Source: a virus
DNA length: 64,000 bases
Direction: 5' to 3' (one strand)
Virus record (IMG/VR): IMGVR_UViG_3300036770_003326
Span: 25,530-89,529 of that record
The stretch's first letter is position 1; each line of letters begins with the position of its first letter. The notes beneath the pieces were generated by a model that was given only the letters and a program-made list of their open reading frames with translations, was not told where the DNA came from and ran no database searches. Shown here piece after piece: positions 21,875 through 46,452 of this stretch. A program made the position numbers and the translations under genes.

Positions 21875-22390
21875 ATGGAAAAAAGAATCATTTTAGAATC
21901 AGCAAAAGGTGTTAAGAATAACAAAGTTCAATTGTGTTTTTCTCAAATAGTAGAAAGCTCTAAAACAAACACTAATGTATTAGGACTATTAAACGCATCT
22001 GATGAGCGTTTTACACAGTCTAAACCTCGTTATGCTTGGGTTACAGCAGAACCTAAAGATGTTAAAGCACAATTTGGTATTGATGTAGATAGTCTTAAAC
22101 AAGGTGATGTATTGGAAATAGGAGCTGTAGATCCAAGAATGGCATCATTCCCAGAAACAGCACTTAACATTCAAATTACCGAGACAACAGAAGGTAGTGA
22201 CTATGATGTACAAAACTTCGAGACTCGTGCTAAGAGAGCAGGTAAAGATGGTGATTTCATTATGAAAGACGGTTTGTATATCTATGTGAATACTACTGTT
22301 GTACCAGGTGAGCCTAAGCATGTTATCATTACTGATACTGAACGAGTATCTGCTAATGGATCTTCTTTGGCAAACTCTTTAGGAGTATAA
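21875..22390 (+). CDS. Probably abundant early protein of unknown function, 171 aa
   Basis: A soluble mixed alpha/beta protein (MEKRIILESAKGV) without Cys. It has a private structured leader and terminators on both sides (21652-21720 and 22402-22436). Its codons are richer in G/C-ending triplets than those of the neighbouring genes. These are features of a highly expressed single gene. A nucleic-acid-binding or host-shutoff role would suit the position, but no family is recognised. Confidence 0.6.
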   Translation: MEKRIILESAKGVKNNKVQLCFSQIVESSKTNTNVLGLLNASDERFTQSKPRYAWVTAEPKDVKAQFGIDVDSLKQGDVLEIGAVDPRMASFPETALNIQITETTEGSDYDVQNFETRAKRAGKDGDFIMKDGLYIYVNTTVVPGEPKHVIITDTERVSANGSSLANSLGV

Positions 22391-22436: not shown

Positions 22437-22462
22437 TTATCTAACCTTTAAATCAGAATAAA

Positions 22463-22729
22463 ATGGAACAGAAACAGACAGCAGTAGAATGGTTGGTCCA
22501 ACAACTAAGAAATGGTAAGGAATTTAATGATGAATTAATCCAACAAGCCAAAGCAATGGAGAAAGAAGAAATAATGTATAGTGAGGAAGAAGTTTTAGAA
22601 ATACTACAAAAATGGTCAATGTATCAAGTTGACATAGAGTTGAATAAATTAAATATAAAAGAACTAAATGATGTGTTGAAAAAAACATTGTCATATAAAG
22701 AATGGTTTGGTCAAATCAAAAAGAAGTAA
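22463..22729 (+). CDS. AVEWLV-family small protein, 88 aa
   Basis: It carries the family N-terminus QTAVEWLVQQL, followed by the QAKAMEKEE segment (residues about 30-40), and then a unique helical tail ending IKKK in place of the usual TFKSE. The family is common as small acidic helical proteins in Bacteroidota phages, with no known function. First cassette after the terminator; start set by the repeat immediately before ATG. Confidence 0.6.
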   Translation: MEQKQTAVEWLVQQLRNGKEFNDELIQQAKAMEKEEIMYSEEEVLEILQKWSMYQVDIELNKLNIKELNDVLKKTLSYKEWFGQIKKK

Positions 22730-22730
22730 T

Positions 22731-22793
22731 ATGGGAAAAGGATTAGACGTAGAAAAGTTTATGAAAGAAAAAGAAACCTTTAAATCAGAATAA
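22731..22793 (+). CDS. Micro-gene, 20 aa, ending in the repeat-encoded TFKSE
   Basis: Reads MGKGLDVEKFMKEKE then TFKSE and TAA. Seventeen of its 63 bases belong to the boundary repeat. It starts one base after the previous stop. Either a real micro-protein or the remains of a cassette deleted by recombination between repeats; the latter is the simpler view. Confidence 0.35.
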   Translation: MGKGLDVEKFMKEKETFKSE

Positions 22794-22794
22794 A

Positions 22795-23019
22795 ATGAAA
22801 ACAGCAGTAGAATGGTTGGTTGAAGAAATAAATAAACTAACTGGATTAACGATTCAAATGGATGAGCCAATAATTGAACAAGCTAAAGAAATGGAAAAAG
22901 AGCAGATAAAAAGTGCATTCACACAAGGTGATTTATTTGCAGAAGATTATTTTAACCCTGAAAAATCTAACATCGATTGTTCAGAAAATTACTACAACAA
23001 AACCTTTAAATCAGAATAA
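22795..23019 (+). CDS. AVEWLV-family small protein, 74 aa
   Basis: KTAVEWLVEEI at the start, QAKEMEKEQI around residue 30, and YYNKTFKSE at the end: the complete family pattern, strongly helical and acidic. Its last codons and stop form copy three of the boundary repeat, and the same bases (AATAAC, 23015-23020) form the first core box of the attC-like site that follows. Confidence 0.65.
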   Translation: MKTAVEWLVEEINKLTGLTIQMDEPIIEQAKEMEKEQIKSAFTQGDLFAEDYFNPEKSNIDCSENYYNKTFKSE

Positions 23020-23109
23020 CGGTTTGCGGCTTTGCAATAGCCGCCAAAGAAGAATTTAATTATTAACCGAGAATTGTCAGGCGGCTATTGCAAAACCGCT
23101 GTTAGCCGC
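23015..23109 (+). other. attC-like integron recombination site 1
   Basis: Left box AATAAC (23015-23020) and right box GTTAGCC (23101-23107) bracket a long imperfect hairpin. GCGG-C-TTTGCAATAGCCGCC (23026-23045) pairs with GGCGGCTATTGCAAAACCGC across about 35 bases, 19 of 20 positions matching. A short unpaired spacer on one arm agrees with attC geometry. Length about 95 bases is within the known attC range. Confidence 0.75.
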
Positions 23110-23134
23110 TGGCCTTTCTCACAACTTTAAAACA

Positions 23135-23365
23135 ATGACAGCAAAAGAACAAGCAAGTAGTTTAGTTGAGTATTTTTGGACAGATGTTGAAGAGTTTAAA
23201 CAATACGAAACTATTAAAATGACAAAAGAAATGGCTAAAGATTGTGCCATAAAAGTAGCTGAAGAAGCTAAAATAGAAATAGGAAATTTTGATAGAACTG
23301 ATGGATTTGTCAAAACTCGTGAAGATTTTTGGGATGCTGTCATTGTCGAAATACGGTCTATGTAG
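23135..23365 (+). CDS. Integron cassette A product: MTAKE-family small protein, 76 aa
   Basis: A soluble helical protein (MTAKEQASSLVEYFW; KEMAKDCAIKVAEEA; FWDAVIVEI). It is a distant paralogue of the 69-aa protein at 25584, which shows the same order MTAKEKAN, KEMAKQCA, FWEQVKQEI; such proteins are frequent in Bacteroidota genomes and phages, function unknown. It is the only gene between attC-like sites 1 and 2, 26 bases after the recombination point, which is the standard one-gene cassette layout. Confidence 0.65.
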   Translation: MTAKEQASSLVEYFWTDVEEFKQYETIKMTKEMAKDCAIKVAEEAKIEIGNFDRTDGFVKTREDFWDAVIVEIRSM

Positions 23366-23369
23366 GCTT

Positions 23370-23497
23370 GCGGCTAACGTTCCGAGTATTTGCGTAGTGC
23401 CTATACTGAACTATATTGTAAAATACAAAACTTAAAAATATGCAGAAAAGATTATTAGAATTACGAAAGGCATTACGCAAATACTGTGTTATGTGCC
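23370..23497 (+). other. attC-like integron recombination site 2
   Basis: Left box GCGGCTAAC (23370-23378) is the exact reverse complement of GTTAGCCGC (23101-23109) at the start of the same cassette. Inner arms AGTATTTGCGTAGTGCC (23385-23401) and GGCATTACGCAAATACT (23469-23485) match at 16 of 17 positions. Right box is GTTATGTGCC (23488-23497). The 67-base loop is AT-rich. Total 128 bases, large but within attC range. Confidence 0.85.
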
Positions 23498-23512
23498 GTT
23501 TTTATTCAGATT

Positions 23513-23854
23513 ATGACAACGAAAGAGAAGATAATAAATCAAAGCATTGAGCAAGTTGAAAAGCAACTCAAAGAAATCAATTTGATACTTGAAGCTAATC
23601 CTTTAAGCGAGATATGTAAAATTAGACAAGAAGCACAAAAATTGCTCGATGAAAACAAAACTGTTGAGCAAAGAACGAGTGATGATTTTATTGCTAAAAT
23701 AGAAGCATTGTCTAAACGTGAAAAAGAGCAATTTGCATTAGCTGAAAAAGGCAAGGATAGTATAAAATTGATTGACGAAAAAGTCAAATTAGAGTTTGAG
23801 TTGTCAGACTTGCGAAATGAACTGTATCATATTGAACGTAGGCGCGTGTCTTAA
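23513..23854 (+). CDS. Integron cassette B product: coiled-coil protein, 113 aa
   Basis: The ATG at 23513 is chosen; a longer GTG frame from 23486 would read through the attC core and is unlikely. The protein is Glu/Lys-rich and almost wholly helical with heptad character (EKIINQSIEQVEKQLKEI), so a coiled coil is predicted over most of its length. No family is recognised. The gene fills the space between attC-like sites 2 and 3 and ends four bases before the latter. Confidence 0.6.
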   Translation: MTTKEKIINQSIEQVEKQLKEINLILEANPLSEICKIRQEAQKLLDENKTVEQRTSDDFIAKIEALSKREKEQFALAEKGKDSIKLIDEKVKLEFELSDLRNELYHIERRRVS

Positions 23855-23857
23855 AAT

Positions 23858-23914
23858 GGCACATAACACCAAAGCAGGTGAAGTTTTAATTTCACTTGCT
23901 GACTGTTATCCGCA
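23858..23914 (+). other. attC-like integron recombination site 3
   Basis: Left box GGCACATAAC (23858-23867) is the exact reverse complement of GTTATGTGCC (23488-23497), the start of cassette B. Arms AGCAGGTGAA (23873-23882) and TTCACTTGCT (23892-23901) match at 9 of 10 positions with a nine-base loop. Right box GTTATCC (23906-23912). A further GTTATT at 23931-23936 complements the left box of site 1. Confidence 0.8.
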
Positions 23915-23955
23915 GTTTTAATTGCGAAAGTTATTAACCTTTAAATCAGAATAAA

Positions 23956-24177
23956 ATGAAACAGACAGCCGTAGAATGGTTAGTTGAAAAATTTTCAACT
24001 CAAGGAACATTACATAGTTCAGATATATCACAAGCCAAAGCAATGGAGAAGGAGCAGATAATGGATGCAAGAGAAGATGGTCATTTATCTACATATGCAG
24101 AATATGGTTCAACTCCTAAATGTTACTTAGACGGAGGACATGAACAATACTACAACGAAACATTTAAATCAGAATAA
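23956..24177 (+). CDS. AVEWLV-family small protein, 73 aa
   Basis: KQTAVEWLVEKF at the start, QAKAMEKEQI at about residue 30 and YYNETFKSE at the end. The middle (residues 40-62) is a variable part unique to this copy. It follows the integron-like insertion, and its leader GTTATTAACC plus the repeat looks like an ancestral cassette start. Confidence 0.65.
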   Translation: MKQTAVEWLVEKFSTQGTLHSSDISQAKAMEKEQIMDAREDGHLSTYAEYGSTPKCYLDGGHEQYYNETFKSE

Positions 24178-24178
24178 G

Positions 24179-24376
24179 ATGGAACTATTTAAAAGTAAAT
24201 GGGGTCAATGGACAGACCTATCAACTACGGGGTATATGGGGTATAAATATTTACTTCAAGCAAGAAGGCATAAAGACGGAAGAATACAATACAGAGTAGA
24301 AAAAAGTAAGGATTGCTATACTTGCAACATTCCAACACTTGAACAATTAGAAAAAGTAACCTTTAAATCAGAATAA
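24179..24376 (+). CDS. Small basic protein, 65 aa
   Basis: Start at ATG 24179, inside the repeat-derived leader. MELFKSKWGQWTDL opens a Lys/Tyr/Trp-rich protein, probably a small beta domain, that ends in repeat-encoded TFKSE. A similar compact fold occurs in many Bacteroidota accessory proteins, but no family is named. It overlaps the previous stop by two bases or less. Confidence 0.55.
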   Translation: MELFKSKWGQWTDLSTTGYMGYKYLLQARRHKDGRIQYRVEKSKDCYTCNIPTLEQLEKVTFKSE

Positions 24377-24377
24377 G

Positions 24378-24563
24378 ATGAAAACAATAAATGACTTTAT
24401 TAAAGAACTTCAAATGATTAGTGAAGAAAAAAGAAAATTACCATTGGTTGTTCAATGTCCAAATGGGGAAATAACATCACCAACAATTAAGATGATGTGG
24501 GATGAACCATTAATGATGTTTGAAAAAGAACCTGATAAAATGATTATTAGTTGGAGAGATTAA
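24378..24563 (+). CDS. Small hypothetical protein, 61 aa
   Basis: A soluble protein (MKTINDFIKELQMISEEKRKLP, VVQCPNGE, MIISWRD) that ends before the next repeat copy, so here the repeat is spacer and not coding. The pattern is like small Bacteroidota accessory proteins of unknown function. Confidence 0.55.
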   Translation: MKTINDFIKELQMISEEKRKLPLVVQCPNGEITSPTIKMMWDEPLMMFEKEPDKMIISWRD

Positions 24564-24581
24564 CCTTTAAATCAGAATAGA

Positions 24582-24980
24582 ATGATAATACAAACAAGAA
24601 GGACTTATGATTTTATTGAAATAAAAGTTGATGAAATTAAAACTACAATTTTTAAAAGTGACATTAAGGAAATAAATGACACAATTGAAAATTTATTACA
24701 AGTAGTTGATGAATTAAAAACACTAAAAGAAAGACAAAAAAACAGAACTATGAAACAAACAGCAGTAGAATGGTTGGTTAACGAACTTAAAAACAATCAC
24801 GGTATAGATTTAAAATTATACAATGAGTTTGACAAAGCCAAAGAAATGGAGAAAAAGCAGAGAAAAAAAGACTTTGTTAATGGCTATAAATCAAGAGCCA
24901 AAGAAAGCAATTTAATTTTTGATGAAACCTCTGAAATGTATGCAATTAAATTATTTAACGAAACCTTTAAATCAGAATAG
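24582..24980 (+). CDS. In-frame fusion of a coiled-coil segment to an AVEWLV-family protein, 132 aa
   Basis: Residues 1-56 are a Lys/Glu/Ile-rich helical segment ending KNRT. Residue 57 is Met, and from there the reading is a complete family member: KQTAVEWLVNEL, KAKEMEKKQ, LFNETFKSE. The junction AACAGAACTATGAAACAAAC resembles a degraded boundary element without its stop. Either a fused gene or two translated units sharing one frame. Confidence 0.6.
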   Translation: MIIQTRRTYDFIEIKVDEIKTTIFKSDIKEINDTIENLLQVVDELKTLKERQKNRTMKQTAVEWLVNELKNNHGIDLKLYNEFDKAKEMEKKQRKKDFVNGYKSRAKESNLIFDETSEMYAIKLFNETFKSE

Positions 24981-24981
24981 A

Positions 24982-25368
24982 ATGAAAGCAAATGAATTAA
25001 GAATAGGAAATTATGTTTATGATACTTTAGGTAAAGTAAATACCTATATTGTAAAAGAACCACATAATCAAGTTAAACCAATCCCGCTAACAGAAGAATG
25101 GTTGTTGAAGTTTGGATTTAAAAAATACCCTGACATTAGAGATACATTTCAACAAGTATATTATGATTCCTATCAACTTGAAATTGATAGATTTACTATT
25201 ATTTCATTTTCTATCCAACAAAACAATAAAAATTTGATTAAGTGTAATTATGATAGAGGTTATAGGTCAGAAGATAATAAAAAAAATTATTACATCAAAT
25301 ATCTTCATCAACTTCAAAACCTATACTTTGCACTTACAGGAGAAGAATTAACCTTTAAATCAGAATAG
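24982..25368 (+). CDS. MKANELRIGN-family small protein, 128 aa
   Basis: This matches a small-protein type very common in Bacteroidota genomes and phages: MKANELRIGNYV, PIPLTEEWLLKFGF, HQLQNLYFALTGEEL. Its function is unknown, and it is probably a compact beta-rich domain with a helical end. The normal C-terminus is here extended by repeat-encoded TFKSE. Start set by the repeat leader. Confidence 0.7.
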   Translation: MKANELRIGNYVYDTLGKVNTYIVKEPHNQVKPIPLTEEWLLKFGFKKYPDIRDTFQQVYYDSYQLEIDRFTIISFSIQQNNKNLIKCNYDRGYRSEDNKKNYYIKYLHQLQNLYFALTGEELTFKSE

Positions 25369-25369
25369 A

Positions 25370-25582
25370 ATGAAAACAATAACAAAATCAGTAATTAAGT
25401 TGTCGGATATTCCACAGCATTTACAACAAAATGTAGCATTACAAGGACATAAAATACATACTTATGCAGAGTTTCACATTGATAATTCAGAACAAGATGA
25501 TTTAACATTGTGGCTATTAAATAAACATCCTACATTAAAAAGGAAAATAAGTTTTTTAATTCATATTGATAAATCAGAATAG
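25370..25582 (+). CDS. Small hypothetical protein, 70 aa
   Basis: MKTITKSVIKLSDIP begins a soluble mixed protein ending HIDKSE. The last residues and stop come from the 5'-truncated boundary repeat at 25569, which shows how the repeat can donate a new C-terminus. No domain recognised. Confidence 0.55.
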   Translation: MKTITKSVIKLSDIPQHLQQNVALQGHKIHTYAEFHIDNSEQDDLTLWLLNKHPTLKRKISFLIHIDKSE

Positions 25583-25583
25583 A

Positions 25584-25793
25584 ATGACAGCAAAAGAAAA
25601 AGCAAATAGATTGTGCATTGATTTTTTAATGAACATTGATACAGATGATTGTGATTTTGGAATGAATAAAGAAATGGCAAAACAATGTGCATTGGTTGCA
25701 GTGAATGAAATACTTGAAAGTTTTATAATAACTATCCCTAAACATCAAACTGAGTTTTGGGAGCAAGTTAAACAAGAAATAATTAACCTTTAA
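25584..25793 (+). CDS. MTAKE-family small protein, 69 aa
   Basis: MTAKEKANRLCIDF, NKEMAKQCALVAVNEIL and FWEQVKQEIINL give the order typical of this small helical family. It is a distant paralogue of the integron cassette A product at 23135. The ATG at 25584 directly after the repeat is preferred over the in-frame upstream frame. Confidence 0.65.
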   Translation: MTAKEKANRLCIDFLMNIDTDDCDFGMNKEMAKQCALVAVNEILESFIITIPKHQTEFWEQVKQEIINL

Positions 25794-25804
25794 ATTAGAA
25801 TAAG

Positions 25805-26047
25805 ATGACAGCAGTAGAAGAATTAATACATTTTATTAAAAATGATAGAATGCAAAGTACATACACAAAAGAACAAATATTGGAACTACTTAAATTTAAG
25901 TTAGAAAAAGAGAAAGAGCAGATGATTGAATTTGCTAAGTACACAGAATTTATTGATACAGATAAAAGTGATATGAACAAAGTAATAGACTTTTACTTAA
26001 CACTTGACGGAGAAGAATTTGTTGAAGAAACCTTTAAATCAGAATAA
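25805..26047 (+). CDS. AVEWLV-related small protein, 80 aa
   Basis: MTAVEELIHFIKN is a diverged family N-terminus. KLEKEKEQMIEFAK replaces the EMEKEQ segment, and EETFKSE ends the protein. Helical and acidic throughout. Bounded by repeat copies at 25785 and 26029. Confidence 0.6.
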   Translation: MTAVEELIHFIKNDRMQSTYTKEQILELLKFKLEKEKEQMIEFAKYTEFIDTDKSDMNKVIDFYLTLDGEEFVEETFKSE

Positions 26048-26048
26048 G

Positions 26049-26250
26049 ATGGAAAACAGCAGTAGAATGGTTTCAAGAACAGTTTAATAAGTATTATGCT
26101 TTTTCAAAGGAAGAAATGCAAACATTTGATTGGATGTTTAACAAAGCCAAAGAAATGGAGAAAGAGCAGATAATAGATGCTTGTAAACAATGTTCTTATA
26201 GTTATGAAGAAGCAGAACAATACTACAACGAAACCTTTAAATCAGAATAA
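26049..26250 (+). pseudogene. AVEWLV-family copy disabled by a one-base shift at the start
   Basis: After ATGG at 26049 the frame of AAA ACA GCA GTA (from 26053) reads KTAVEWFQEQF, AKEMEKEQI and YYNETFKSE to TAA at 26248-26250, a complete family member. The ATG is out of that frame by one extra G; its own frame stops after 12 codons at 26087. Either a genuine inactivating insertion or a sequencing error beside the GG-AAAA run. Confidence 0.7.
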
Positions 26251-26251
26251 G

Positions 26252-26329
26252 ATGATGATTGCAATTGTATTTTTCTTAATAGGAATAGTTGTTGGACTTA
26301 TAATGGGTTACAACATAATGAAAAAATAA
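26252..26329 (+). CDS. Single-pass membrane micro-protein, 25 aa
   Basis: MMIAIVFFLIGIVVGL begins a 25-residue peptide ending MKK. It is almost entirely one hydrophobic helix with a basic tail. It starts at the repeat-linked ATG and ends just before a truncated repeat copy. Similar micro-proteins are common in phage accessory regions. Confidence 0.5.
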   Translation: MMIAIVFFLIGIVVGLIMGYNIMKK

Positions 26330-26344
26330 TTAAATCAGAATAAG

Positions 26345-26395
26345 ATGAAAGTAACATATAAATTTTCTTATTATACTTTAAACGCTTTAAACTAA
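26345..26395 (+). CDS. Micro-frame, 16 aa, doubtful
   Basis: MKVTYKFSYYTLNALN follows the last, truncated repeat copy at 26331. It may be the start of a cassette whose body was lost. Coding potential cannot be judged at this length. Confidence 0.25.
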   Translation: MKVTYKFSYYTLNALN

Positions 26396-26401
26396 AATAA
26401 A

Positions 26402-26596
26402 ATGAAACAATTTCTTTTATATACACTCTCCTGGATAAGCCAAAACTTGGCTGTACCATTTTGGGTAGTAGGACACGTTCATTTGAGTATTAATGTATAT
26501 GAAGATATTTACGAACTGCTAGCGTCATTTGGCATGAACGCAATTGTCCTAGCAGGATTTATTTACGATTATTTAAAACAAATAAAAAAATTATAG
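26402..26596 (+). CDS. Small membrane protein, 64 aa
   Basis: MKQFLLYTLSWISQN starts a protein with two hydrophobic stretches (residues about 4-24 and 38-55) and a basic end (KQIKKL), as in a small two-helix inner-membrane protein. It is the first gene after the repeat array; its leader AAACTAAAATAAAATG keeps only the 3' part of the boundary element. Confidence 0.55.
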   Translation: MKQFLLYTLSWISQNLAVPFWVVGHVHLSINVYEDIYELLASFGMNAIVLAGFIYDYLKQIKKL

Positions 26597-28022: not shown

Positions 28023-29777
28023 ATGATTTATTTAGTAACTAACCAACGGAGTTTATTTAATTCCGTTGGTTATATTATATGTGATGTAGAAGAATCTTTA
28101 AAATATTTAAATAACCTTGATATAATAGCAGTCGATACAGAAACTATGGGTATGGATCCCTATACTTGTAATTTAGTTTCTTTGCAATTAGGCGATAACG
28201 ACAAGCAATATGTAATAGATGTTAATACAGTAGATATCAAAGTATATAAAGAATTACTTGAGAGTAAAACACTAATATTTCATAATGCAAAATTTGATTT
28301 AAGGTTTTTATATCATCATAATATAGTACCAAAGAAAATATTTGATACTTTTTTAGTAGAAAGAATATTGTTTACGGGCATAGACTCTGCAAGAAAATCT
28401 TTAGATGCTGTAGTGCATAAATACTGCAAAATAGAACTTGATAAAACTGTTCGCGGTGCCATTCACAGAGAAGGTTTGAGTACAAGAGTAATAAAATATG
28501 CTGCTTACGATGTAAAGTTTCTTCATGAAGTAATGAGAAAACAACAAGTATTTCTACAAGAACATAACTTAACTCGTACTGCTAGTTTAGACAATGAATT
28601 TGTTAAAGTTCTAGCTTATATAGAGTATTGTGGTTTTTATCTAAATCCTAAAGATTGGCAAAAAAAGTGCGAAGAAGACTTGAAAGATCTAAACGTCATA
28701 AAAGCACAATTGGATCAATTTATTCTAGATAATCCTGAAAAATATAGCAAGTATATAGACAATCAATTAAGTTTATTTGACGAAGGAACAAAATGTAAAT
28801 TAAACTGGGCTTCTTCTCATCAAGTAATTCCTTTTATGCAAAGTCTAGGTGTTGATACTCTTACTAAAGATAAACAAACAGGCTTATCTAAACATTCTGT
28901 AGATAAAAAAGTAATAGGGCCACAAAAGAAAAAACATCCTATTATTAAAACTTATATAGAATTTACTGAGCATCAAAAAGTTGTAAGTACTTATGGTGAA
29001 AATTGGTTTAATTATATTAATCCTGTTACTAAACGTGTACATAGCAATTATCAGCAAATTATGAATACTGGTAGATTATCTAGTGGTCAAAAAGGAGATA
29101 GAAAGAAAAACTTACCACAATTGCCTAATATGCAAAATATACCTAGTGATTCTAGAACTAGATCATGTTTTCAAGCACAAAAAGGTAACAAACTTATAGT
29201 GAGTGACTATTCTGGCCAAGAACAAATAGTATTGGCTAATAAGAGTTTGGATCCTGACTTGTTATATTTTTATTCTCAAGGTCTTGGAGATATGCATAGT
29301 TTTGTTGCAAGTAAAATATTTCCTGAGCTTAGTAATTTAACTCTTGATGAGATTAAAAACAACCACAAAGACAAACGACAGATTGCTAAAGGTGCTGGTT
29401 TTGCGATAAATTATGGTGGTACTGGAATTACTATTTCTCAAAATCTTTCTATTTCTATGGAAGAAGGCGAAAAAGTATATCAAGAATATTTTAAAGCATT
29501 TCCTGGATTAGCTAATTATTTTAAACAAGAAAAACAAAAGGCTTTAAAACTAGGCTATATAGAGTTTAATAATATTAGCAACCGTAAATGTTTTATAGAT
29601 TATTTTCAAGACTTTACTAGATTGCACAATGATATTTATAATACAGAAGGTTTTTGGGAAAATTACAAACACGAAAAAGAAAATAATACTGAAAAATTTA
29701 AATTGTTCTATAAACCCAAAGTACGTGAATATTTTATGAAAAAAGGTGATATTGAACGTATGTCACTTAATTATCCT
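28023..29777 (+). CDS. polA: DNA polymerase I (family A), exon 1 (585 codons)
   Basis: Replicative DNA polymerase with 3'-5' proofreading. Exo motifs: DTE at residues 38-40, HNAKFDLRF at 87-95 and YAAYDVKF at 159-166. Polymerase motif A: VSDYSGQEQ at 393-401 (catalytic Asp395). Motif B: KRQIAKGAGFAINYGG at 451-466. The exon ends at ...SLNYP; translation into the intron adds one Lys and stops. Joined to exon 2 (30620-30874) it gives a 669-aa enzyme with motif B and motif C regions complete. No 5'-3' exonuclease domain is present, as is usual for phage enzymes. Confidence 0.95.
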
Positions 29778-34874: not shown

Positions 34875-35549
34875 ATGGCACAATTAGTATTCCTGGTTGG
34901 AAAATCGGGTATGGGTAAATCTACCTCATTGAGAAACCTAAACCCTGATGAAACTGTAATTATCAACACTGATCAAAAAGCGTTGCCTTTCAAACAGTTT
35001 AATCTAAAATATAATGAGGAAAGAAAGAATTACAAAAAGACTTCTGATGCTGTAGAAGTCTATAAAGTACTGAACAAAGTAAACAGCATGGAAAATGTTA
35101 AAACTGTTGTAATAGATACTTGGTCAAGAATTATGACTGACGCTATTATGTCACAAAGTTTTCGTGCAGAAAAAGGCTTTGATAAATGGTCTAAGATGGC
35201 CGCTAATCAATATGATTTAATTAATTATATTAACGACGGTATGAGAGATGATATAATAGTATATCTAATGGCTCATCCTGAAACTCATTTTGATGAAAAC
35301 GGCTTTTCTACTGAACGTATTGGCGTACAAGGTAAAATGCTTGAGCGTTTTGTGCCAGAAAGTTTTAGTACCATAGTACTTTATGCAGAAATTATCAAAC
35401 AGCCTGGACAAGCTAACAAACATGTATTTAGAACTGTATCTTCAGGTTCTGATACTTGTAAAACGCCTTTAGAAATGTTTGAAACAGACAGTGTAGAAAA
35501 TGATTTATTACTTGTAAATCAAAAAATTAGAGAATATTATTCAATTTAA
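34875..35549 (+). CDS. Sak4-like RecA-fold ATPase, 224 aa
   Basis: Walker A FLVGKSGMGKST (residues 6-17), an Asp-containing Walker B at TVVIDTWSRI (about 77-86) and MAHPET (about 136) after a beta strand match the AAA_24/Sak4 group of phage single-strand annealing or recombination ATPases. These short RecA relatives work with an SSB, and two SSB-like genes follow directly. A 65-base AT-rich leader precedes it, so it may have its own promoter. Confidence 0.8.
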   Translation: MAQLVFLVGKSGMGKSTSLRNLNPDETVIINTDQKALPFKQFNLKYNEERKNYKKTSDAVEVYKVLNKVNSMENVKTVVIDTWSRIMTDAIMSQSFRAEKGFDKWSKMAANQYDLINYINDGMRDDIIVYLMAHPETHFDENGFSTERIGVQGKMLERFVPESFSTIVLYAEIIKQPGQANKHVFRTVSSGSDTCKTPLEMFETDSVENDLLLVNQKIREYYSI

Positions 35550-41824: not shown

Positions 41825-42319
41825 ATGGTGAGTGAGATAAAACTAGAGTTTCCCGAATTTATCACGCATATACCACAAAGTAAAAACGTATGGGTTAAAA
41901 TAGGTTATAATAAAATTCATGCTTCTGTGCATTATACAACTAGAGCGGCTCTTGTGGCCGCTATGCACGGTTATATTGAAAAAAATATTCCTGAAAATCT
42001 TAGTATTCAAGCACCAATTGAAACTAAGCTAACTGTATATGCGCCTATAAACTTTGGTAGTATGAAAATGGTAAAAGATAAAACTACTGGTAAGAGAAGA
42101 ACGAGTTGGACTCCTGCAGCTCCTGGGTATAAACCTAATTGGGATATAGGAAATTTAGCATTAATATGGATTAAAGCTTTAGACGACGTATTAATTAAAA
42201 AAGGAATACTTCCAGATGATACTGTTGAATTTCTAAGAAGAACTACTTATGAGTTTATTCCTGTAAGTAATTTTAAAGATAGAAAATTAGTCTACAAATT
42301 AAAAAGTATAAAAAGATGA
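41825..42319 (+). CDS. RusA-like Holliday junction resolvase, 164 aa
   Basis: The segment NWDIGNLALIWIKALDDVLIKKGILPDDT (about residues 98-127) matches the RusA active-site region, where aspartates in DIxN and in PDDT bind metal and a Lys lies close by. The N-terminal beta part and total length agree with RusA. It would cut four-way junctions arising in recombination-dependent replication before packaging. Overlaps the nuclease gene by four bases. Confidence 0.75.
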   Translation: MVSEIKLEFPEFITHIPQSKNVWVKIGYNKIHASVHYTTRAALVAAMHGYIEKNIPENLSIQAPIETKLTVYAPINFGSMKMVKDKTTGKRRTSWTPAAPGYKPNWDIGNLALIWIKALDDVLIKKGILPDDTVEFLRRTTYEFIPVSNFKDRKLVYKLKSIKR

Positions 42320-43353
42320 GTAATTATAAAGACATACAAGCGCTCAATCAGAGTATCTTAAAGAAAATATTATACAGTCCTGCAGAATTTAAAAAAGCTC
42401 AAGAACGACAAAACAACGAAGAATCTAGCCAAGATCATTTTGTATTTGGTACAATGGTAGATATAATGTTAACAGGTACTCGAGCAGAATTTGATGAAAA
42501 ATTTATTAAAATATCCGAAGATTCTTATCCTAGTGAAACTATTGAAAAAATAGTAAGAGGTGTTTTTGATGAAATTCTAACAGAGCATCAAGAAGATATT
42601 AATTTTTTTCCTTTTAGTGCTTATACTGATAAGATTTTACAGCATTGCAAATATCAAAATTATTATAATAATTATAAAGATGAGACTAGAGTAAGCAAGA
42701 TACTTACTACTGGCACAGATTATTTTGAGTTATTACAAAATTCTGTAGGTAAAACTATAGTTACTGATATTGAGTATGCTAAAGCTGTAAATTGTGTAAT
42801 GGCCTTAAAATCTGATGATTTTACTAAAAAATATTCTGATAAAAATTATCCAAAACATTCTCCAGATGATTTAGAGTATTTAGATAAAGTAGTCATTATG
42901 TTTGAATATGAAGGCTTGCAATTTAAAGGTGAGTTAGATAGAGTTATGTTAGACCATGATAGAAAAGTAATTACTCCAATAGACTTTAAAACTACTAGTA
43001 AAAGTATTATTAGTTTTAAACATGAGTTTTGGAAATATCGTTATGATTTTCAAGCAGCAGTATATCGTTACGGGCTTACAAAACAAGATTTTATAGTGGA
43101 ACTAATGAAAAAAGGTTATGTAATGGATAATTTTCTATATATTGTAGTAGAAAAAGAATTGACTAACCCGCCAATGTGTTTTGAGGTAACTAAAGATATT
43201 ATTCATATAGGTCTTGCAGGTGGCAAAATAGAAAATACTTTTTATGAAGGATTTACACAAGCAGTAGAGAGATATATTTATGCTGAAAATAACAACAAAT
43301 GGCAGTATCCAAAAGAATATTATGTAAATAACGGCAGAATGAGTTTATTATGA
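42316..43353 (+). CDS. PD-(D/E)XK exonuclease (RecE/Cas4-like), 345 aa
   Basis: Active-site motifs are in order: FGTMVDIMLTG (44-54), GELDRV (205-210), PIDFKTTSKS (221-230) and the QAAVYRYGL helix (245-253). This is the PDDEXK_8/RecE-type nuclease arrangement used for end resection in phage recombination. It pairs naturally with the Sak4-like ATPase and the SSB-like protein. The start overlaps the resolvase stop (ATGA). Confidence 0.8.
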   Translation: MSNYKDIQALNQSILKKILYSPAEFKKAQERQNNEESSQDHFVFGTMVDIMLTGTRAEFDEKFIKISEDSYPSETIEKIVRGVFDEILTEHQEDINFFPFSAYTDKILQHCKYQNYYNNYKDETRVSKILTTGTDYFELLQNSVGKTIVTDIEYAKAVNCVMALKSDDFTKKYSDKNYPKHSPDDLEYLDKVVIMFEYEGLQFKGELDRVMLDHDRKVITPIDFKTTSKSIISFKHEFWKYRYDFQAAVYRYGLTKQDFIVELMKKGYVMDNFLYIVVEKELTNPPMCFEVTKDIIHIGLAGGKIENTFYEGFTQAVERYIYAENNNKWQYPKEYYVNNGRMSLL

Positions 43354-44564: not shown

Positions 44565-45464
44565 ATGAAAAAAATAAAAACATTTTATTCACCAAAACAA
44601 GTATGTCATAAAATGGACTCATCATTTTCTAAAAGTCCATTAAAACCATATCTTTTGATGAAAAAAATTAAAGAAAAAAATTATGATAAATATTTTGATC
44701 TACAAGAAAATTTTGAGCCTATAAAAAAAGAAGATTTTTTAATTGCACATACAGAAGAGTATGTAGATAATGTATTTAATAAAAAAGGTAATTATAGTAA
44801 TAATGGATTGCCTTGGAGTAACGAGTTAGTTAAAAGTTTACATTATACTACAGGATCATTATTAGCAGCTAAAAGATGGGCAATAGAATATCCTGAAGAA
44901 TTATGTTTTGCTCCTGTATCAGGTATGCATCATGCAAAGCCTCATACAGGATCAGGATATTGTACATTTTCAGGACAAGTTATATCTGCTATAAAGATTT
45001 ATCAAGAAACAGGTTTATCAGGAGCATATCTTGATTTAGATTGTCATTTTGGAAATAGTATTGAAGATACTTATGATTTTAATCCTTTACTAGAAAAAGC
45101 AATACCAAAAGGTTTTAATATAAATCCAGAAGGTTATAATGAAACTTACATTAAAAATTTTAAATCTAAGCTTGAATTATTAAAAAAAGAAATTTTAAAA
45201 AATAAAATACATTATGTAGTATTTGCTCATGGTGCAGATAGTCATACTGAAGATGATTTAGGAGGAAGATTAGATACTGAACATTGGATAAAAGCGGCAG
45301 AAGTTTTTGCTAATTGGGTAAATGATATATCAAAAGATTTAGGTAAGTCTTTGCCAGTAGTAATGTGTTTATTTGGGGGATATAGAAGAAATAATTATGA
45401 TTTTGTACTAGACTTACATATTATATCTTTATTAACTTGTAGAAGAATAATTTATAACTTATAA
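44565..45464 (+). CDS. Histone deacetylase-superfamily (AcuC/acetylpolyamine amidohydrolase-like) protein, 299 aa
   Basis: All catalytic elements of the arginase/deacetylase fold are present: SGMHHAKPHTGSGYC with the His pair at 122-123, YLDLDCHFG with zinc ligands Asp159 and His161, GADSHTEDDLG with zinc ligand Asp225, and FGGY with the transition-state Tyr273. The family removes acetyl groups from lysines or polyamines. The start at ATG 44565 avoids an upstream extension that would overlap the micro-gene. The substrate is unknown; acetylated host proteins or polyamines are candidates. Confidence 0.85.
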   Translation: MKKIKTFYSPKQVCHKMDSSFSKSPLKPYLLMKKIKEKNYDKYFDLQENFEPIKKEDFLIAHTEEYVDNVFNKKGNYSNNGLPWSNELVKSLHYTTGSLLAAKRWAIEYPEELCFAPVSGMHHAKPHTGSGYCTFSGQVISAIKIYQETGLSGAYLDLDCHFGNSIEDTYDFNPLLEKAIPKGFNINPEGYNETYIKNFKSKLELLKKEILKNKIHYVVFAHGADSHTEDDLGGRLDTEHWIKAAEVFANWVNDISKDLGKSLPVVMCLFGGYRRNNYDFVLDLHIISLLTCRRIIYNL

Positions 45465-45579: not shown

Positions 45580-46452
45580 ATGAGTTTAGTAAAAGTATTA
45601 AATAGAAAAAGTATGTTGATCAGACCTTCAGGTAGAAGTACTGATTTTATTAGTCCAAGTTTTGGTTTTGGCTGTTTGTATGACTGTTCTTACTGCTATA
45701 TGAAACGCCATAAACCTACTGGTTTAGACATAGCTACTAATACTGGAGATATTCTAACAGCTATAAATAATCATGCTTATTTTACTCCTGTAGATAAGCC
45801 TAATCAAACTCATGAGGTACTTACTACTTATGATATTTCTTGTAATGAAGATTTTGCTTTACATGCTAAACATCATGATTGGGAAAGAATTTTTGAATTT
45901 TTCAAAAAACATCCTCTTGCTATGGGTACCTTTGCTACTAAGTATGTAAATAAAAATCTTTTAAATTATAATCCTGAGCAAAAGATAAGAATTAGATTTA
46001 GTCTAATGCCTCAATCTTATGCAGATTTATTAGAACCAAATACTAGTAAAATAAATGAAAGATTAAAAGCAGTAAAAATGTTTCAAGCTGCTGGTTATGA
46101 AGTGCACTTAAATTTTAGCCCTGTAATTGTATGTTTTAATTGGTTACAAGAATATGAACAATTGTTTAAAGATGTCAGAGAGTACGCTATAACATATGAT
46201 TGGGATAATGATAGTGTCAAAGCTGAGGTAATATTTCTTACCCATAATAAATCTAAACATGAATATAATTTAGATAATAATATCTCAGGTGAAGAATTAA
46301 TATGGCGCCCTGACATTCAGGAAAATAAAACATCTCAGTATGGCGGAGAAAATCTTAGGTATGAACATAATTTAAAATCTCAGTATATAAAAGAATTTAC
46401 TGCACTTCATGATAAGATAATACCTTGGAATACAATTAGATATATATTTTAA
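45580..46452 (+). CDS. Radical SAM protein, spore photoproduct lyase-like, 290 aa
   Basis: The 4Fe-4S motif CLYDCSYC (Cys32, Cys36, Cys39) lies in GFGCLYDCSYCYMKRH, as in SplB-related enzymes. Downstream strands (ISCNEDFALH, FATKYVN, IRFSLMPQ, HLNFSPVIV) fit the partial TIM barrel. Family members repair spore-type thymine dimers or act on other nucleic acids. It stands among DNA-maintenance genes (UDG-like, MazG-like), so DNA repair or base modification is likely. Confidence 0.8.
   Translation: MSLVKVLNRKSMLIRPSGRSTDFISPSFGFGCLYDCSYCYMKRHKPTGLDIATNTGDILTAINNHAYFTPVDKPNQTHEVLTTYDISCNEDFALHAKHHDWERIFEFFKKHPLAMGTFATKYVNKNLLNYNPEQKIRIRFSLMPQSYADLLEPNTSKINERLKAVKMFQAAGYEVHLNFSPVIVCFNWLQEYEQLFKDVREYAITYDWDNDSVKAEVIFLTHNKSKHEYNLDNNISGEELIWRPDIQENKTSQYGGENLRYEHNLKSQYIKEFTALHDKIIPWNTIRYIF

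Follow-up and report, generated by a model that had tools for sequence, protein, structure and literature searches.

The locus examined here raises the question of what a short repeat does that recurs at the gene junctions of an array of tiny phage genes. The window (the whole stretch of 64,000 nucleotides analysed) comprised bases 25530-89529 of the 89,529-base IMG/VR virus record IMGVR_UViG_3300036770_003326. It encoded a Crassvirus capsid, three crAss ring proteins, a family A DNA polymerase and DnaB and SNF2 helicases, which showed that the window phage is crAss-like. The array was located in the interval from an anchor gene of 171 aa (21875-22390) to the DNA polymerase gene (28023), and 14 copies of the repeat, all on the + strand, joined its tiny genes at window positions 22443-26347. 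Comparison with public viral contigs and loci (numbered with the prefix L below) indicated that the repeat is likely a shared seam of 18-23 bp where phages exchange single-gene cassettes.

An earlier note on this DNA had counted fourteen copies at gene junctions, and the same number was obtained here. A scan with CCTTTAAATCAGAATAR allowing up to three mismatches found 13 copies in 22445-26343 compared to 1.8 expected by chance in the whole window, and a 14th, 5'-truncated copy was present at 25570-25586. When the complete 89.5-kb record was searched for exact matches, no copy was found beyond the array. Ten copies were exact in the core, two had one mismatch (24161 and 25787) and two lacked the 5' part (25570 and 26330), as the note had described. 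Eight copies encoded a C-terminus ..TFKSE* and copy 25570 encoded ..DKSE*, while copies 22445 and 23938 were non-coding, copy 24564 followed a TAA, copy 26330 followed a stop and copy 25787 was read in another frame as ..INL*. This agreed with the description that about half of the copies encode TFKSE and that others follow a stop untranslated. The start codon described as part of the junction was missing at one copy, 23001, where an attC-like hairpin came directly after the repeat instead of ATG. The 20-aa ORF at 22731 (MGKGLDVEKFMKEKETFKSE) matched the C-terminal end of a full-length gene of the TAVEWL family in L250 (..NKDFDFEKFMKEKETFKSE), and its label as a remnant was therefore apt.

An alignment of 174 distinct copies from public viral contigs, with the core fixed by the search pattern and the edges left free, gave the unit as AACCTTTAAATCAGAATA followed by RR and ATG. 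The core recognised earlier was retained and its ends were extended, by AACC on the left and RRATG on the right. An ATG was found within five bases after 581 of 603 copies (at most two mismatches to the 18-mer) and after none in the reversed-sequence control. The distribution of copies before ATG was bimodal, with 490 exact copies and then 68, 23 and 38 at one, two and three mismatches, a shape that came partly from retrieving the loci by exact match. In frame 0 the element reads LTFKSE*; the TAA in TAACC serves as stop for the second frame and the TAA in TTTAAA for the third, and the next ATG is placed one base after the last A/G of the element. Whichever of the three frames the upstream gene uses, the element ends its translation and next provides a start codon. 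As a result, any two cassettes joined at the element receive an intact stop and start, and genes of any frame are served. This arrangement, a natural blueprint for joining genes in any frame, was missing from the earlier note, as were the second seam and the attC-like insert described below. The upstream ORF ended in frame 0 as ..TFKSE* at 288 of 495 flanked copies, at the TAA within TTTAAA at 74 and at the TAA of TAACC at 45; 73 of the 495 had no upstream ORF of at least 30 codons. No inverted repeat or Shine-Dalgarno motif was present in the element, nor, as judged by eye, the Bacteroidota promoter consensus TAHHTTTG. The two seam copies that were folded did no better than shuffled sequences (z about 0 to +1), which indicated no hairpin.

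The flanks of the copies were compared pairwise over 100 bases on each side, and identity of 80% or higher across 80 bases was taken as homology. For the 495 copies, 25 pairs were homologous on both sides versus 491 on one side, 234 of them on the left and 257 on the right. As controls, element-free stop-to-start junctions of the same contigs produced 1010 two-sided versus 1353 one-sided pairs, while those within 3 kb of an element produced 767 versus 1136. Synteny was kept by 5% of the element-junction pairs versus about 40% of the control pairs, and was about nine times more frequent in the controls. As the pairs are not independent, the test was repeated at the level of clusters. At the element, at least two unrelated partners were found for 76 of the 84 left-flank clusters and for 52 of the 66 right-flank clusters, compared to 106 of 290 and 123 of 308 in the controls.

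Averaged identity was about 0.95 on the homologous side, stayed at 0.9-1.0 from -4 to +13 and was at background beyond -5 and +19; the drops at -5 and +19 are the exact limits of the element. The RR bases tracked the downstream gene (0.84/0.89) more than the upstream gene (0.67/0.60), which places most crossovers left of RR in the 18-base core, and the exchange points were scattered across the element and not at a single base. Clean cases were also found between close relatives. In L064 and L244 the flanks were about 99% identical and the difference was one 279-base cassette with both breakpoints in the element, and L158/L191 and L183/L227 showed clean cassette indels of the same kind. L133 and L134 were 98.9% identical outside a difference of about 770 bases, with one element in L133 versus three in L134; the left border in L134 was a weak element copy, so that this case was only nearly clean. 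Relatives retrieved without the use of the element, through the anchor gene at 21875-22390, had 0-3 copies between the same anchors (up to the DNA polymerase at 28023) versus 14 in the window, and other tiny genes mostly filled the interval. Exchange breakpoints lie inside the element, and the cassettes move between phages, and are gained and lost, as whole units. The comparison of relatives proposed in the earlier note was thus carried out with a positive outcome, and relatives keeping the same gene order with diverged repeats were not seen. Assembly chimaera as the main cause was rejected, since the cassette joint ITNYLKKEIK-element-GTCAGGTGG recurred in different samples (L053, L285, L299, L315 and L331) and the control junctions from the same contigs behaved differently.

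The units between two elements had a median length of 216 bases and mostly held one ORF starting 20 bases past the first base of the element. A total of 258 distinct cassette proteins fell into 116 families, of which TAVEWL was the largest with 74 members. Among pairs of units that matched along their length with 90% or higher nucleotide identity, both neighbours were unrelated in 62, both related in 60 and one related in 13. Together with the excess of one-sided pairs, the edge-sharp identity and the clean indels, the 62 pairs bear out the earlier proposal of a DNA-level recombination seam that lets genes be swapped, gained or lost. One cassette was a tRNA gene (L118, 9255-9349); the GTCAGGTGGCGG.. 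cassettes were considered as further tRNAs and were not called by ARAGORN or Rfam, leaving L118 as the only confirmed case. Ten cassette proteins searched against Pfam and PHROGs matched only PHROG 10066 and PHROG 21441, both families of unassigned function, and a scan of the array with Rfam produced nothing reliable. The seam offers a sequence handle by which accessory small-gene cassettes, almost all of unassigned function, may be located. A protein search with the gene at 24982-25368 found five relatives at 48-58% identity with the exact element before the start and two at 57% with another seam, while none below 45% had the element. The occurrence of relatives with and without it showed that the element belongs to the array and not to the gene.

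The exact unit was present in well over 200 IMG/VR stretches; in the exact searches of the viral collection, two disjoint patterns were found in at least 120 stretches each and a third pattern in 105. The element had one orientation per record, and the backwards control gave zero matches in 37 long records. A recognisable crAss-type capsid was found in 8 of these 37 long element-bearing records and not in the rest (30 to 224 kb). Among cultured phages, no seam-bearing record was found by DNA searches with the array and with a 61-bp consensus or by a protein search with a TAVEWL protein. Bacterial and archaeal genomes (257 Gb) contained just four exact matches, each a single copy in an ordinary start context, and these were taken as chance.

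Exchange at the seam would proceed by homologous (annealing) recombination between seam copies, either of co-infecting phages or within one genome. The likely enzymes would be those of the phage itself or of its host; in the window, the candidates are a Sak4-like AAA_24 protein (34875-35546, + strand, E=1.9e-10) as annealing recombinase and an ExoVIII-like/DUF3799 PDDEXK exonuclease (42316-43350, + strand) as its recombination partner. Phage annealing recombinases are probably the agents, and we infer both this mechanism and any role in expression. Selection would keep the seam, as junctions made there would cost nothing and the A-rich 3' half would suit Bacteroidota translation starts. Several points weigh against this explanation. 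AAA_24 passed the cut-off in just 13 of the 37 other records, and no single enzyme is therefore common to all. A weakness is that the shared tract is often just 18-23 bp, short for general recombination, with about 30 bp cited as the minimum for Red-beta by De Paepe et al. (PMC3945230); many TAVEWL ends add shared bases upstream of the seam. The loci were mostly retrieved via the element itself, the contigs were metagenomic and homologous pairs are not independent, and recombination at the seam is deduced from the comparison of contigs. In the same contigs, 110 of 152 pairwise indels were away from the element. Finally, a role in expression may be the main reason for which the element is conserved.

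Such a role leads to a different explanation, that the element is a cis-acting start-associated signal (a translation enhancer, an RNA-processing site or a regulator-binding site) for early small genes, and that recombination occurs anywhere while the survivors keep the signal together with stop and start. The element ends 1-2 bases before ATG, with an ATG within 5 nt in 581 of 603 copies, its orientation is always the same, and for the SAS repeats of cluster K mycobacteriophages, which occupy a similar position, a role in translation has been proposed (PMC3203893). In Flavobacterium, A at -3, -6, -12 and -13 from ATG favours initiation (Baez et al., PMC6847099). As the element has A at these positions, a regulatory role is plausible; it would also explain the conservation, and both roles may hold together. 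As the sole explanation, a start signal was nevertheless considered rather unlikely. The two halves are equally conserved, and the left one (AACCTTTAAA) mostly lies in coding sequence. Downstream of the element there can also be a tRNA gene or attC-like hairpins, and for one cassette gene the relatives with less than about 45% identity, as well as two at 57%, work without the element. In addition, an identity tract of constant extent is not expected from selection alone.

The integron-like appearance of the units (median 216 bp), each a lone promoterless-looking gene and all with the same orientation, could instead point to a dedicated site-specific recombinase, integron-like or unknown, that cuts at the element and moves cassettes, and the sharp breakpoints and the attC-like hairpins in the same array would fit such an enzyme. 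However, no tyrosine recombinase passed the cut-off in the window phage (an incomplete record) or in the 37 long element-bearing records, though the host may supply one, and no serine resolvase or Y1 transposase was found in the 38 records. The element also has no hairpin or inverted repeat and the exchange points are spread over it, which makes this explanation improbable. It is more improbable still that the repeat merely reflects a C-terminus conserved in one duplicated family of small genes (TAVEWL..EQYYNETFKSE), without having a role itself. TAVEWL accounts for 74 of the 258 distinct proteins and an upstream stretch, GAACAATACTACAACGA, is common to many copies, but the same DNA occurred in 115 further families, a tRNA and non-coding DNA, with 119 copies in other frames and 73 without a reading ORF of at least 30 codons. 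The TAVEWL C-terminus may be the historical origin of the element.

The exchange seam resembles several known systems in part. Short conserved boundary (linker) sequences were proposed for the mosaicism of lambdoid phages (cited in PMC3029335). The likeness lies in a short stretch of DNA common to gene borders, where mosaic exchange takes place and is explained by homologous recombination. Lambdoid boundary sequences are each specific to a given border; here, in contrast, one identical sequence occurred up to 14 times per genome, in many phages, with more than 100 gene families and a three-frame stop and start. As with boundary sequences, a short conserved sequence was found at gene borders, with mosaic breakpoints inside it more often than at other borders. 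Whether phage mosaicism arises via short shared boundary sequences or by random joining followed by selection has been debated for decades, and one invariant sequence with hundreds of copies and sharp breakpoints in crAss-like and other phages makes this question directly testable.

The mobile cassettes of T4-type phages are early promoters with stem-loops, unlike the seam, which has no stem-loop. These mobile regulatory cassettes (promoter stem-loops; Arbiol et al. 2010, cited in PMC4177764) are alike in being a repeated intergenic element tied to the shuffling of small genes in a plastic part of the genome. The SAS/ESAS repeats of cluster K mycobacteriophages, according to the accessible text of PMC3203893, are short and non-palindromic, with 11-19 copies in one orientation before the starts of small non-structural genes; the host lacks the repeat, which was counted as a further resemblance to the seam. 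The seam is likewise placed a few bases before the start codon, in one orientation and in many copies. SAS differs in its length of 13 bp and its Shine-Dalgarno-like core, and the association of ESAS is conserved with a gene family; in the same text, exchange breakpoints are not reported and a three-frame stop is not described. The 13-bp SAS consensus GGGATAGGAGCCC with its Shine-Dalgarno core was not matched by the element. Integron cassettes and phage CALINs (Qi et al. 2023, PMC9892861) are alike in their one-orientation arrays of single-gene cassettes exchanged whole, and unlike in that the element has no attC structure, no integrase was found and attC-like hairpins were present only as an insert at 23016-23910. 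No precedent was found in the open-licence papers searched for the combination of one invariant multi-copy sequence, a three-frame stop and start, and whole-cassette exchange among distinct phages.

A second seam, B (AACCTTTAAACAACAAGAACAATG), had its first ten (5') bases in common with the main element and preceded many genes (in L336, L337, L052, L065, L171 and others). Its core had 46 matches at one mismatch, not all of them at gene starts, and its few flanks were too few for a firm breakpoint test. The frame-0 reading of seam B runs to a TGA overlapping ATGA, so that, as read from the sequence, it likewise leaves no frame open provided that the next codon starts with A. Tentatively, one 'socket' could be common to many unrelated Bacteroidota-type phages, a platform for integron-like cassette exchange that has neither hairpins nor integrase and in which the sequence would be kept identical across lineages because any small gene plugs in behind any other, with seam B as a second socket in parallel. 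A third shared end, WFEQFKKK* (TGGTTTGAACAATTTAAAAAGAARTARNATG, family D), was coding only and also terminated different genes in other contigs. Motif C (CAAAAACACGAATA), obtained from a k-mer search, stood mostly before one gene family and was rejected as a seam.

Three attC-like imperfect hairpins were present in the seam array (23016-23103, 23374-23490 and 23862-23910) and flanked the small genes at 23135-23365 and 23513-23854. The first two folded far better than shuffled sequences (z -4.2 and -3.3). The right boxes GTTAGCC, GTTATGT and GTTATCC do not match GTTRRRY, and the hairpins are therefore only attC-like. The scan was unspecific, with 44 matches versus 34 in the reversed control, and the strongest alone were inspected. 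Clusters of attC sites are known in virulent phages (PMC9892861). Between L299 (2857) and L285 (3880-4689), the flanks were 99.9-100% identical and a difference of about 812 bases lay between hairpin TAAC boxes (..GAGTAAC|GG.. to ..CTAAC|ACC..), which looks like the gain or loss of a hairpin-bounded cassette adjoining a seam copy. The tail of the third hairpin also recurred before the seam in several other contigs.

Along the + strand, the array began with seam copy 1 (AACCTTTAAATCAGAATAAAATG, 22443-22465), which is not translated and separates the single-copy anchor gene from the first gene of the TAVEWL family (22463-22729; 88 aa, C-terminus EWFGQIKKK, no Pfam or PHROG family). A copy of the family D junction was located at 22700-22733 and the remnant ORF, the 3' part of which resembles the TAVEWL C-terminus of L250, at 22731-22793. 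Copy 2 (22775-22797, as TFKSE*) was followed by a 74-aa TAVEWL gene (22795-23019) ending in copy 3 (23001-23019, as TFKSE*), which was fused directly to the attC-like hairpin (..AATAACGG). Right behind the third hairpin, the untranslated copy 4 (23936-23958) preceded a 73-aa TAVEWL gene (23956-24177) with no match among cultured phages. Copy 5 (24159-24181) was an AACATTT variant read as TFKSE*, with the same variant and flanks in L150, and led to the 65-aa gene MELFKSKWGQW.. (24179-24376), which has a homologous cassette in L166. After copy 6 (24358-24380, as TFKSE*), a 61-aa gene (24378-24563) ended as ..WRD* at the TAA of TTAACC, stopped by the TAACC of copy 7 (24562-24584). The 132-aa ORF at 24582-24980 is apparently a short gene fused with a TAVEWL gene starting near 24750.

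Copy 8 (24962-24984, as TFKSE*) preceded the 128-aa gene of PHROG 10066 (24982-25368, E=7e-23), and copy 9 (25350-25372, as TFKSE*) a 70-aa gene (25370-25582) ending ..IDKSE*. Copy 10 (TAAATCAGAATAGAATG, 25570-25586), without the 5' part, was followed by the 69-aa gene of PHROG 21441 (25584-25793, E=2e-11), which ended as ..INL* at the TAA within TTTAAA; copy 11 (25785-25807), the TTTAAATTAG variant, stopped this gene in the NL* frame. An 80-aa gene (25805-26047) and copy 12 (26029-26051, as TFKSE*) came next. The left flank of copy 13 (26232-26254, as TFKSE*) matched L156, L020, L233 and L289, with a different right-hand gene in each, and copy 14 (TTAAATCAGAATAAGATG, 26330-26347) lacked the 5' part. 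Just beyond the array, GCTTTAAACTAAAATAAAATG at 26384-26404, ahead of an ATG at 26402, resembled a strongly diverged seam copy. Finally, a histone-deacetylase-domain protein (44565-45461) and a spore-photoproduct-lyase-like radical SAM protein (45580-46449) were found elsewhere in the window as unusual phage cargo.

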